Of a stretch of 64,000 nucleotides of DNA, positions 36,830 through 40,058 are shown piece by piece; positions within the stretch are counted from its first letter, which is position 1, and every line of letters starts with the position of its first letter. Made by a program: the position numbers and the translations under genes. Source of the stretch: Lactobacillus sp. CBA3606 (GTDB lineage: Bacteria > Bacillota > Bacilli > Lactobacillales > Lactobacillaceae); the NCBI RefSeq assembly GCF_002970935.1, contig NZ_CP027194.1:1798001-1862000 (forward strand), given 5' to 3'. Under the pieces are notes generated by a model. The model was not told where the DNA came from, did not search any database, and was given only the letters and a program-made list of their open reading frames with translations.

Positions 36830-38002
36830 TTAGTAAGGTCGCTTAAGTAGCCGGACCCGATCAACGGCTGGAATTTGGTTGAGTGTCGTGATTAATTGCT
36901 GACTACGGGTGTGGTCAAGCTCATCGATATCGATGATGGTATAGGCAGTTTGTTGTTTGGCAGCATTCGCCATTGAGGCGATATTTAGTCCCGCCGCCGC
37001 TAATGTTGCGGTAATTTGACTAACCATATTGGGGACGTTTTGGTGAATGATGGTGAATCGGTGCGCTGCATTAAATGGCACGCTTAAGTTGGGTAAGTTA
37101 ATGGCATCTTGAACATTGCCCGTTTCCAGGTAGGTCATAATGGTTTGCGCAGCCGCGGTGGCGCCGTTAACTTCGGCTTCTAAGGTTGACCCGCCGATAT
37201 GTGGCGTGACAGTGACTTGGGCTTGATTAGCCAAGCTTGGTTCACCAAAGTCGGTGTAATAGTGGGCCACCTGACCGGTCTTAATGGCTGCTAAAACGGC
37301 ACTATTATCCACAATCCCACTACGCGCGTAGTTGAATAACTGAACCTTAGCTGGCATTGCGGCCAGTTCGGTGGCGCCAATTAGGTTTAATGTGGCCGCA
37401 CTTTTAGGGACATGGACGGTGACGTAATCAGCGTCTTTGACGGCCATCGGTAAGGTGGCGGCCCGTTGGACCTGTTTGGAAATGTTCCAAGCGGCGTCGG
37501 CTGATAAGTATGGATCATAACCAACAACGTTCATCCCAAGTGCAAGGGCAGCGTTTGCCACTAAGACCCCGACATGACCGAGGCCGATGACGGCGAGCGT
37601 TTTACCGAATAATTCGGTGCCGTTGAATTTGGTTTTATCATGTTCAGTGCGTTGCGAGACATCTGCTTCGGTGTGGTGGGCTGAATAATTGGCAGCTTCG
37701 ATTAAGTTTCGTGAGGCCACAATTAAGAGTGCAATGACGAGTTCTTTAACCGCATTGGCGTTACTGCCAGGTGTGTTGAAGACGGCTGTCCCATTTTTAG
37801 TGGCGGCGGCGATGGGAATATTATTGACACCAGCTCCGGCGCGGGCAATCACTTTGAGCGTCGCTGGTAAGGGTTGGTGCGTGAGGTCGACTGAGCGAAT
37901 GAGATAAGCATCAGGATTGTTAGTTTGGTTGAGTTGGTAAGCGCTAGTAAATCGGTCTAAACCGGCTTGGGCAATCGCATTATAAGTTTTAATTTGATAC
38001 AT
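36830..38002 (-). CDS. serA: D-3-phosphoglycerate dehydrogenase
   Basis: 390 residues. First step of serine synthesis: 3-phosphoglycerate to 3-phosphohydroxypyruvate with NAD. Dinucleotide motif VIGLGHVGVLVANAALALG, catalytic Glu/His region in FGEPSLANQ and TPHIGGST, and a C-terminal ACT domain (FTIIHQNVPNMVSQITATLA) like that of serine-inhibited enzymes. The long frame extending upstream is not coding here: ATG 38002 has AAGGAG and lies inside the end of serC (14-base overlap), indicating translational coupling. Confidence 0.94.
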   Translation of the reverse strand: MYQIKTYNAIAQAGLDRFTSAYQLNQTNNPDAYLIRSVDLTHQPLPATLKVIARAGAGVNNIPIAAATKNGTAVFNTPGSNANAVKELVIALLIVASRNLIEAANYSAHHTEADVSQRTEHDKTKFNGTELFGKTLAVIGLGHVGVLVANAALALGMNVVGYDPYLSADAAWNISKQVQRAATLPMAVKDADYVTVHVPKSAATLNLIGATELAAMPAKVQLFNYARSGIVDNSAVLAAIKTGQVAHYYTDFGEPSLANQAQVTVTPHIGGSTLEAEVNGATAAAQTIMTYLETGNVQDAINLPNLSVPFNAAHRFTIIHQNVPNMVSQITATLAAAGLNIASMANAAKQQTAYTIIDIDELDHTRSQQLITTLNQIPAVDRVRLLKRPY

Positions 38003-39089
38003 TTGACTGAACTCCTTTATGGGTGGCTTCAAAAGTGGCGAGATAATCAACGAGTGCCTGCACACCAGCGATTGGCATGGCGTTATAAAGACTCGCCCGC
38101 AGGCCACCTAATAGGCGGTGACCTTTTAAATTCAATAAGCCATTTTGAGTGGCACCGGCAATCACTTGAGCATCTAAAGCTGGACTAGTCGTTTTAAAAG
38201 GGACGTTCATCAGTGACCGGTCAGCGGGAGCGACGGGATTATTAAACAGCGTGGATTGATCTAAAAAGTCATATAATAAGGCTGCTTTTTGACGGTTACG
38301 TTGGGCCATGACGGTGACGCCACCTTGCGCTTTGAGCCATTTCAAGACTAGCCCGGCTGCATAAATTGCCATGACTGGTGGGGTATTGAACATCGACCGT
38401 TTGGCTGCAAAAAGCTGATAGTCAAGCATGCTGGGCAGATGTTGGGCGTGCCCGATTAGGTCGTCACGAACAATAACTAAGGTTAGGCCAGCCGGACCAA
38501 GGTTTTTTTGAGCACCAGCAAAAATCATCCCAAAGTCGGTGACATTGTAGGGCTGGCCTAAAAAGTTAGAGGACATGTCAGCAACTAAGGGGACGGTCCC
38601 AGTGACCGGTAAAGTGGTATAGGCGGTGCCTTCAATCGTATTATTAGTTGTGACATGGACATAATCTAAGTCAGTTGCGACCGGTTGAGTGAGGATTGGT
38701 AGGGTGGTGAAGTGAGTCGCCGCGCTACTGCCCAAAATATCGACTTTAGTGTGGACCCGTGTGGCTTCATCTGCGGCGCGACTCGCCCAATGACCGCTAT
38801 CAAGGAGCCCGATATGATGATGTTTGGTCGCTAAATTTAACGGTGCGGCGGTGAATTGTAAGGTGCCACCACCTTGAAAGAAAAGCACGTGATAATTATC
38901 AGGAATTTGCATTAGCGTTCGTAAATCGGCTTCAGTATCAGTGATAACCTGGTCAAATAGTTGGGAGCGGTGTGAAAGTTCCATGATACTCATGTGCGAT
39001 CCTTGAAATGATGGTAATTCGGCTTGAATCTGAGCAATCACTGGTTGCGGCATGACGGCCGGACCGGCGGAAAAATTATAAATTGGCAT
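37989..39089 (-). CDS. serC: Phosphoserine aminotransferase
   Basis: 366 residues. PLP enzyme of the second step of serine synthesis (3-phosphohydroxypyruvate to phosphoserine). YNFSAGPAVMPQPV at the N-terminus, FFQGGGTLQF phosphate-binding loop and the PLP-lysine in AGAQKNLGPAGL. Start at 39089 after GTGGGGA. Expression should be governed by the leader-peptide attenuator upstream. A serB-type phosphatase is not in the operon. Confidence 0.94.
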   Translation of the reverse strand: MPIYNFSAGPAVMPQPVIAQIQAELPSFQGSHMSIMELSHRSQLFDQVITDTEADLRTLMQIPDNYHVLFFQGGGTLQFTAAPLNLATKHHHIGLLDSGHWASRAADEATRVHTKVDILGSSAATHFTTLPILTQPVATDLDYVHVTTNNTIEGTAYTTLPVTGTVPLVADMSSNFLGQPYNVTDFGMIFAGAQKNLGPAGLTLVIVRDDLIGHAQHLPSMLDYQLFAAKRSMFNTPPVMAIYAAGLVLKWLKAQGGVTVMAQRNRQKAALLYDFLDQSTLFNNPVAPADRSLMNVPFKTTSPALDAQVIAGATQNGLLNLKGHRLLGGLRASLYNAMPIAGVQALVDYLATFEATHKGVQSNVSN

Positions 39090-39124
39090 TAATATCCCCA
39101 CTTTCAAATTAACGGTGACTAGCT

Positions 39125-39340
39125 AAAAAAGTCCGCGCAATCAATTTTGATCACGCGGACTTAAAGTCAGGAGTTATAACCGTCCGCGTCATCAATGGTC
39201 ATTGACAAGTGCGCGGGCTTTGTTGGAACGCAAAACTAGGCCGACACAGTTGTCTGTGTTGACCAGGAGGAGACGATTAAGTTAGCTTGACGATTAATAA
39301 CCATGCTGACCACTCCTAAAATTTCGTTGCCTTAAATCTA
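39125..39340 (-). promoter_or_regulatory. serCA leader: promoter, leader peptide and terminator/antiterminator attenuator
   Basis: Minus-strand promoter TTGACA (39358-39363), 17 bases, TAGATT (39335-39340). After the leader peptide come segment 1 GCCCGCGCAC (39210-39219), segment 2 GACGCGGAC (39182-39190), segment 3 GTCCGCGTGATC (39149-39160) and segment 4 ATTGCGCGGACT (39130-39141) plus T6. Segments 1:2 can pair (CCGCG/CGCGG with TCAATG/CATTGA inside), 2:3 form an antiterminator and 3:4 a terminator. This is the classical arrangement of translation-coupled transcription attenuation. No T-box motif is present. Confidence 0.82.
39236..39304 (-). CDS. Candidate serCA leader peptide, 22 residues
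   Basis: ATG preceded by AGGAG (8 bases away) opens MVINRQANLIVSSWSTQ and ends TTVSA before TAG. Ser occurs at positions 12, 13, 15 and 21 (TCC TCC TGG TCA ... TCG), so Ser-tRNA shortage would stall the ribosome about 60-80 bases before the antiterminator. The peptide lies between the promoter and the attenuator hairpins. It is too short for usual annotation; function is inferred from position and codon content. Confidence 0.78.
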   Translation of the reverse strand: MVINRQANLIVSSWSTQTTVSA

Positions 39341-39434
39341 CCAAGCCGGTAAAAATTTGTCAAGCTAACATGACTAAAATTATTGTGGCATAATGAAAAG
39401 CAACTAAGCCAATTAATGCAAGGAGATTCAGCTG

Positions 39435-40058
39435 ATGACTACTTTCTATATTGTCCGGCATGGTCAAACGACCGCCAATGCGCAAGACTTAAAACAAGGG
39501 ACGATTAATACCGCTATTACACATTTAAATGCGGTCGGTGAGCGCCAAGCGCAAGCCCTACAAGCACGTTTTGACATTAGTTTTGCTGATCGTTTAATCG
39601 TGAGTCCGTTAGCTCGGACGCAAGCAACCGCCGCTATTTTAAATCATGGTCGTGATTTGCCAATCACACTCGATGAGCGTTTACTTGAAATTTCATATGG
39701 TCAATGGGATGGTCAAAAGAATGCCGCGCTAAAAGCGCAGTATCCCCAATATTTTGATCCAGCCTTACACGACGTCCTGCCAAGCTATGTCACCGTTGCC
39801 ACAGCGGGTGAGTCGTTTGATCACGTGGTCCAACGGGTGACCGATTTCTTAACGACAACGGCGCAAGCCCATCCAGCTGATCAGATTATCGTGGTGACGC
39901 ACGGGTTTACGGTGAAGGCGATGTTACTTGCCATCTTAAAACCGGCTGATCCCATGAGTATTCCTGAACCGGATAATGCCAGTATGACGAAGCTGACCGT
40001 GGTGCCAGCTGAAGACCGCGCTTATGTGAGCTATTATAATCGGCAGGTTGGCTTTTAA
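39435..40058 (+). CDS. Histidine phosphatase family protein (phosphoglycerate-mutase-like)
   Basis: 207 residues. Catalytic RHG motif at residues 8-10 (IVRHGQTTANA), second His156 in VVTHGFTVKAM, Glu in DERLLEISYGQWDGQ. The small size and TEG-less active site favour a phosphatase over a cofactor-dependent mutase. It reads away from serC with the two starts about 345 bases apart. Because serB is missing from the locus, a phosphoserine phosphatase role (as in the iPSP enzymes of some bacteria) is worth considering; alpha-ribazole phosphatase is less likely. AAGGAG ribosome site. Confidence 0.85.
   Translation: MTTFYIVRHGQTTANAQDLKQGTINTAITHLNAVGERQAQALQARFDISFADRLIVSPLARTQATAAILNHGRDLPITLDERLLEISYGQWDGQKNAALKAQYPQYFDPALHDVLPSYVTVATAGESFDHVVQRVTDFLTTTAQAHPADQIIVVTHGFTVKAMLLAILKPADPMSIPEPDNASMTKLTVVPAEDRAYVSYYNRQVGF

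Follow-up and report, generated by a model that had tools for sequence, protein, structure and literature searches.

A serine attenuator very probably controls serC-serA

We analysed a stretch of 64,000 nucleotides (nt) from Lactobacillus sp. CBA3606 (the window; contig NZ_CP027194.1, positions 1,798,001 to 1,862,000) and found upstream of serC an element whose best reading is a serine-specific, ribosome-mediated (leader-peptide) transcription attenuator; judged from sequence comparison, such an attenuator very probably controls serC-serA. The locus has a short frame just past a promoter-like site and led by a Shine-Dalgarno (SD) sequence, a cluster of serine codons in that frame, and mutually exclusive segments that end in an intrinsic terminator (Table 1). 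Five pairings among these segments are complementary and covary, and the frame with its serine codons is tied to serC. A sequence-only reading of this DNA had named the promoter, the AGGAG and the 22-residue frame with serine codons at 12, 13, 15 and 21, all of which we confirmed as stated on the minus strand. Its proposal of a serine leader-peptide attenuator also gains support, as comparison across genera finds the frame, the serine codons and the alternative segments conserved and covarying. Hence, the lack of conserved frame or segments that would speak against an attenuator was not what we found.

The element is conserved upstream of serC

Conservation is the strong evidence for the predicted element. 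We sampled 21 genomes of the genus, 397 of the family and 295 of the order, and built two models, R1 from 19 genus leaders and R2 from 44 leaders. serC is present in 20 of the 21 genus genomes, and the element precedes it in all 20. In 19 of these, the TCCTCCTGGTC motif stands in a short frame no more than 450 nt upstream of serC, with an SD-like stretch ahead and SSWST followed by a short tail; in the twentieth (G002), the element lies 573 nt upstream of serC. The genus genome without serC (G007) has no R1 match at E ≤ 0.01.

R1 matched 115 of the 397 family genomes (E ≤ 0.01). We read 50 of its places outside the genus and found that 43 precede serC, 42 with a leader bearing a Ser-Ser cluster and one (L137) with Ser-Phe-Ser. 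Seven do not precede serC (L165, L168, L170 and L172-L175), and four of them (L168, L172, L174 and L175) resemble T-boxes by eye. R2 matched 127 of the 397 genomes (E ≤ 1e-3), and its 95 top matches (E ≤ 4.1e-7, a cut-off chosen post hoc from where the serC-linked matches end) all precede serC, at a median of 25 nt from the SerC match; coordinates place 94 of them there, and the 95th is from G387, in which serC is split over two frames. Among the matches listed, none of the weaker ones (E above 4.1e-7) lies before serC by position.

SerC was detected in 171 of the 397 family genomes at E ≤ 1e-40. Of another 40 serC upstream regions that we read, 32 had been picked for a weak (E > 1e-9) or absent R2 match. 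An SD-led leader with a serine cluster is present in 20 of the 40; eight of these leaders (G026, G065, G032, G129, G319, G146, G375 and G193) have no R2 match before serC among the matches listed. In one more region (G384), the element lies outside the scanned stretch; the other 19 are weighed below. Outside the family, the best R2 match among the 295 order genomes has an E-value of 3.1e-6, and the three matches read there (L259-L261) have no SD-led leader at the match, so we claim no case outside the family.

The alternative pairings covary

The leaders point to six pairing segments, with 1:2, 3:4 and 5:6 (the terminator) as the off state and 2:3 and 4:5 (the antiterminator) as the on state. 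The alternative pairing proposed earlier stood, being conserved and covarying across genera, but the count of four segments gave way to six. For the 19 genus leaders, mean duplex energies were -10.2 for 1:2, -16.8 for 2:3, -10.0 for 3:4, -14.9 for 4:5 and -18.8 for 5:6, with shuffled means of -3.9, -7.7, -7.4, -7.4 and -6.3, respectively. Non-adjacent controls were close to shuffled values: -3.0 for 1:3 (vs. -4.2), -7.0 for 2:4 (vs. -7.3) and -8.1 for 3:5 (vs. -7.0).

We then used alignment A3, a plain sequence alignment of leaders upstream of serC, as the sequence-only reading had proposed. A search with 51 chosen sources (near-duplicate loci and loci without serC omitted) gave 54 matches, three of them on the opposite strand; A3 holds 44 of the 51 forward matches, with seven genus rows omitted to limit redundancy. 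Another alignment, A2 (282 columns, gapped), was set aside. The on-state helices are absent from the collecting model, although the helices were read off A3 itself. The serine codons are conserved in this alignment, and both states covary: in the off state, 90.5% of cells are paired and 18 of 27 pairs are double-changed, and in the on state, 90.3% of cells are paired and 14 of 21 pairs are double-changed. The lowest helix is 3:4, at 83.4% paired. Double-changed cells number 112 in the off state, vs. 37.5 ± 5.7 when shuffled, and 75 in the on state, vs. 22.4 ± 4.5 (0/500 each). Sliding the partners lowers pairing from 90% to 28-53%, and the four longest runs in a scan of column pairs are 5:6, 2:3, 4:5 and 1:2. 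The window and its sister L002 deviate on both sides of 2:3, with GACAACUGUG opposite CACUUGUC, where the others mostly have CAUCUGUG with CAYGGAUG.

Serine is the likely signal

In the 44 aligned leaders, codon 13 is serine in all 44, and codons 12 and 15 are serine in 43 each. UCC stands at codon 12 in 39 leaders and at codon 13 in 41; it is the rarest serine codon of the window (65 of 914 serine codons in 43 window open reading frames, 7.1%). UCN codons are serine-starvation sensors in Bacillus subtilis sinR (PMC3862929; this and the other papers cited by PMC number are used for the available parts of their text). The constancy of serine may be due in part to the sequence-aware model with which leaders were collected; since the eight divergent leaders named above were found without the model, we regard the cluster as real. 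It is unlikely that the leader instead senses Trp or Thr, or a general slow-down of translation. Both residues are invariant in the SSWST of the 19 genus leaders, but codon 14, Trp in 36 of the 44, is Leu in five and Arg in three, with Lys or Gln in further leaders, and at codon 16 three have Ala or Ser; the serines at 12, 13 and 15 are retained, and the 95 top R2 matches precede serC. Trp sensing was dropped on account of these replacements in other genera. Hence, because the Trp between the serine codons varies, serine is the likely signal.

Arrest by the nascent peptide with a small-molecule co-ligand, as in TnaC, would make the peptide sequence decisive rather than the codons. The leader peptide ends are indeed well conserved inside the genus, but this is partly explained because segments 1 and 2 lie in the frame, and across genera little is constant beyond the serine cluster (e.g. 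NNVLFSSSPVGTHC, VNLASSSTQSLV and FVLSSSQSSS), which makes such arrest highly improbable. We hold it just as improbable that the leader binds a protein or metabolite, as a riboswitch or T-box, and that the small frame is incidental. T-boxes are numerous in Lactobacillaceae, with 291 reported for 15 genomes (PMC3766115); yet neither a T-box nor the serC element RF00517 matched 38950-39450 even at E ≤ 10, and the invariant columns lie mostly within codons or paired segments. The seven Rfam matches in that interval at E ≤ 10 all fall far short of their gathering scores; Leu_leader (RF00512), which has the best E-value among them (0.73), was rejected at 16.8 bits against a gathering score of 50. 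At gathering scores, the whole window has only a TPP riboswitch, away from serC (RF00059, 49554-49646, minus strand, 59.5 bits).

The proposed switch and its folding

We infer that the leader of the serine attenuator is translated, that the ribosome stalls on it, that the segments fold in the order given here and that the switch answers to serine. When seryl-tRNA is plentiful, the ribosome would reach the stop codon and cover segment 2, or release so that 1:2 forms; with segment 2 covered or held in 1:2, 3:4 would form and the 5:6 terminator would end transcription. When seryl-tRNA is scarce, the ribosome would stall at the UCC UCC x UCN codons, beside and within segment 1, and leave segment 2 to pair with 3, releasing 4 to pair with 5. 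Once 4:5 had formed, there would be no terminator and serCA would be transcribed.

We folded the 44 leaders by partition function with a ribosome mask, at equilibrium only. With the ribosome at the stop codon, RNA through segment 4 formed 3:4 in 37 of 44. Several other results weigh against the attenuator. Of the 44 leaders folded through segment 3 with no ribosome, 35 formed 2:3 and five formed 1:2. In RNA through segment 4, 2:3 formed in 15 of 44 when free, in 23 when masked to Ser13 and in two when masked to Ser15, and the full RNA kept terminator 5:6 in 39-41 of the 44 leaders with each mask. In the window, 2:3 never exceeded 0.38, and the full RNA with the ribosome at the stop codon favoured antiterminator 4:5 (0.99). 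The ribosome-free minimum free energy structure already has 2:3 in five of the 19 genus leaders (L008, L010, L013, L014 and L019). Among the comparative results, the 2:3 helix of the window has two mismatches, helix 1:2 hardly varies in A3, and the duplex energy of 3:4 is only modestly more favourable than when shuffled (-10.0 vs. -7.4 ± 2.8); of the five pairings, 3:4 thus stands out least. The 19 remaining serC upstream regions show no serine leader, in a set of 40 of which 32 were chosen for weak or absent R2 matches; they comprise all those read of groups g2, g3, g31, g34 and g37, the four read of g23, two of three of g17 and one of four of g6. Hence, the predicted element is widespread in the family, not universal.

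Masked equilibrium folding gives the switch partial support: some of the 44 leaders shift as predicted under one mask but not under another, and the window does not show the switch. Because equilibrium folding ignores the timing of transcription, it neither proves nor refutes the relay; since the terminator dominates the folded full RNA, our confidence in the serine attenuator was slightly lowered.

Related leaders carry other codons

We read 17 places with weaker family matches, as well as the R1 places not before serC, and found leaders with other codon clusters; the names of the genes that follow them are presumed from recognising the proteins rather than through family searches. A second leader, MSLLLNHSKTQTSFYFWYFR, lies before an aminotransferase gene of the window genome (C1 near 2298193; L264 / L268), and a leader ending in SFYFWYFR precedes the aminotransferase in 21 of 21 genus genomes (including L269-L288). 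By eye, three g14 genomes have a YL[YC]FWFF frame before an aminotransferase gene, and eight (L244-L251) have aromatic frames before DAHP synthase, such as MIKINSKINRFYYYWYV in L244; the script left the latter frames unflagged because its search range lay beyond them. One g13 genome (L252) has an RYYYFWFF frame before an aminotransferase gene. A search of the window genome for DAHP synthase (PF00793) found none. A permease gene follows a Val-rich frame in L254 (by eye), and a hydroxyisocaproate-dehydrogenase-like gene follows a Leu/Ile-rich one in L257, each a single case; single-Trp frames precede TrpX-like genes in L258 and L263. Other weak matches, e.g. L255, L256 and L262, showed no leader with matching codons.

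The codon content of these other leaders tracks gene function. We lean slightly towards a family of attenuators in Lactobacillaceae, alongside T-boxes, in which the codon cluster is swapped on a similar multi-hairpin scaffold: Ser for serC, Phe/Tyr/Trp for an aromatic-type aminotransferase as well as for DAHP synthase, and perhaps Val for a permease, Leu/Ile for the hydroxyisocaproate-dehydrogenase-like gene and Trp for a TrpX-like transporter. This is a likeness of scaffolds only, with no claim of common origin. Leaders of a similar kind but with different codons stand ahead of further amino-acid genes, in one case in the window genome. Hence, leader-peptide attenuators may be no rarity in lactobacilli, and the expectation in the sequence-only reading that a serine one would be unusual there may not hold.

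Relation to known systems

The predicted plan matches that of the Salmonella his operon attenuator, in which terminator E:F competes with B:C plus D:E, and A:B is the default if the leader is untranslated (PMC4046918). Unlike his, the element of Lactobacillaceae concerns serine and serC-serA and has segments 1 and 2 inside the frame; the likeness claimed is one of plan. The branched-chain amino acid leaders of Firmicutes (Staphylococcus aureus ilv-leu, and those predicted in Lactococcus lactis and Streptococcus) are likewise ribosome-mediated attenuators of low-GC Gram-positives (PMC5794164), but they use Leu/Ile codons and precede ilv-leu genes. The alpha-proteobacterial element RF00517 also precedes serC-serA, but it consists of two short stems that are proposed to mask the ribosome-binding site, and the available part of its description mentions no leader peptide (PMC1273637). 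The sinR codons share the use of UCN as sensors but, in the part of that paper available, act on translation of their own gene without an attenuator.

Leader-peptide attenuators for His are known or predicted in Firmicutes (PMC2965389, PMC9413887), and Cys leaders have been reported (PMC1262725, PMC8632094). The available text of a 2013 comparative study gives Rfam leader-peptide attenuators for His, Leu, Thr and Trp, plus Ile/Val and Phe, serine not being among them (PMC3766115). By title or abstract, we found no serine attenuator among the matches listed in the open-licence literature, and a search of the available text of Wels 2008, on T-boxes, found neither serA nor serC. The kind of attenuator is already known, and the novelty of the predicted mechanism would be its serine specificity. 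If the reading is right, many genera of a family noted for its T-boxes conserve a serine-specific ribosome-mediated attenuator that shares its six-segment plan with the his operon of distant bacteria; why one lineage has a T-box and another a leader peptide for the same gene would become testable. In lactobacilli of food and gut, the element could further be used to report seryl-tRNA in vivo.

Layout of the locus

The pattern scan gave the terminator a 15-pair stem (39162-39129, minus strand) followed by a T run to 39125. TTGACA was seen in 15 of the 19 genus stretches upstream of serC, and the remaining four are too short to reach the site. Across 38800-39600, the scan found four promoter-like sites (1.9 ± 1.4 in shuffles) and one terminator-like site (1.0 ± 1.0), so such scans by themselves prove little. 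The 153-nt element folds with z = -6.06, and none of 200 shuffles was equally good. The window has 21 SD-led frames with 12-40 codons, and the leader frame is the only one with a serine cluster; as a sole criterion, the count of four serines is weak (binomial p = 0.02).

Table 1. Parts of the predicted attenuator and the genes that follow it, in window coordinates.
Feature	Coordinates	Strand	Details	Basis
Promoter-like site	39335..39363	-	TTGACA-17-TAGATT, TG preceding second hexamer (extended -10)	pattern scan
SD of leader frame	39313..39317	-	AGGAG	sequence
Leader peptide frame	39236..39304	-	MVINRQANLIVSSWSTQTTVSA*; ATG, 22 codons; Ser = TCC TCC (12, 13), TCA (15), TCG (21)	sequence and relatives
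Segment 1	39255..39264	-	GGUCAACACA; codons 14-17; partner 2	
Segment 2	39239..39254	-	GACAACUGUGUCGGCC; codons 17-22; partner 1 or 3	
Segment 3	39204..39218	-	GCCCGCGCACUUGUC; partner 2 or 4	
Segment 4	39182..39193	-	GAUGACGCGGAC; antiterminator 5' arm; partner 3 or 5	
Segment 5	39149..39161	-	AGUCCGCGUGAUC; terminator 5' arm and antiterminator 3' arm; partner 4 or 6	
Segment 6	39125..39143	-	terminator 3' arm and U run	
serC	37989..39089	-	phosphoserine transaminase; ATG at 39089	NF003764 491.9 bits (cut-off 253), TIGR01364 459.1 (cut-off 443.6)
serA-like	36830..38002	-	2-hydroxyacid dehydrogenase; overlaps serC end	PF02826, PF00389; C-terminal ACT matches weak, below cut-offs

The best NCBIfam match of the serA-like protein is the phosphoglycerate dehydrogenase model TIGR01327, below threshold (248.3 of 454 bits). 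In G222 (L203), near-identical tandem repeats of about 98 nt lie immediately before serC, two of them with an SD and a frame MFPPWRFSPDGMDI...; no serine leader was seen there. Divergent from serCA, a histidine phosphatase gene occupies 39435-40058 on the plus strand of the window. Its product scores 90.8 bits with the PspA model, below the cut-off of 350, and may be the missing phosphoserine phosphatase, for which it is a candidate. A similar histidine phosphatase gene is found near serC in genomes G387, G259 and G033, and in G346 (L211) a histidine phosphatase-like gene apparently runs straight into serC, by eye.
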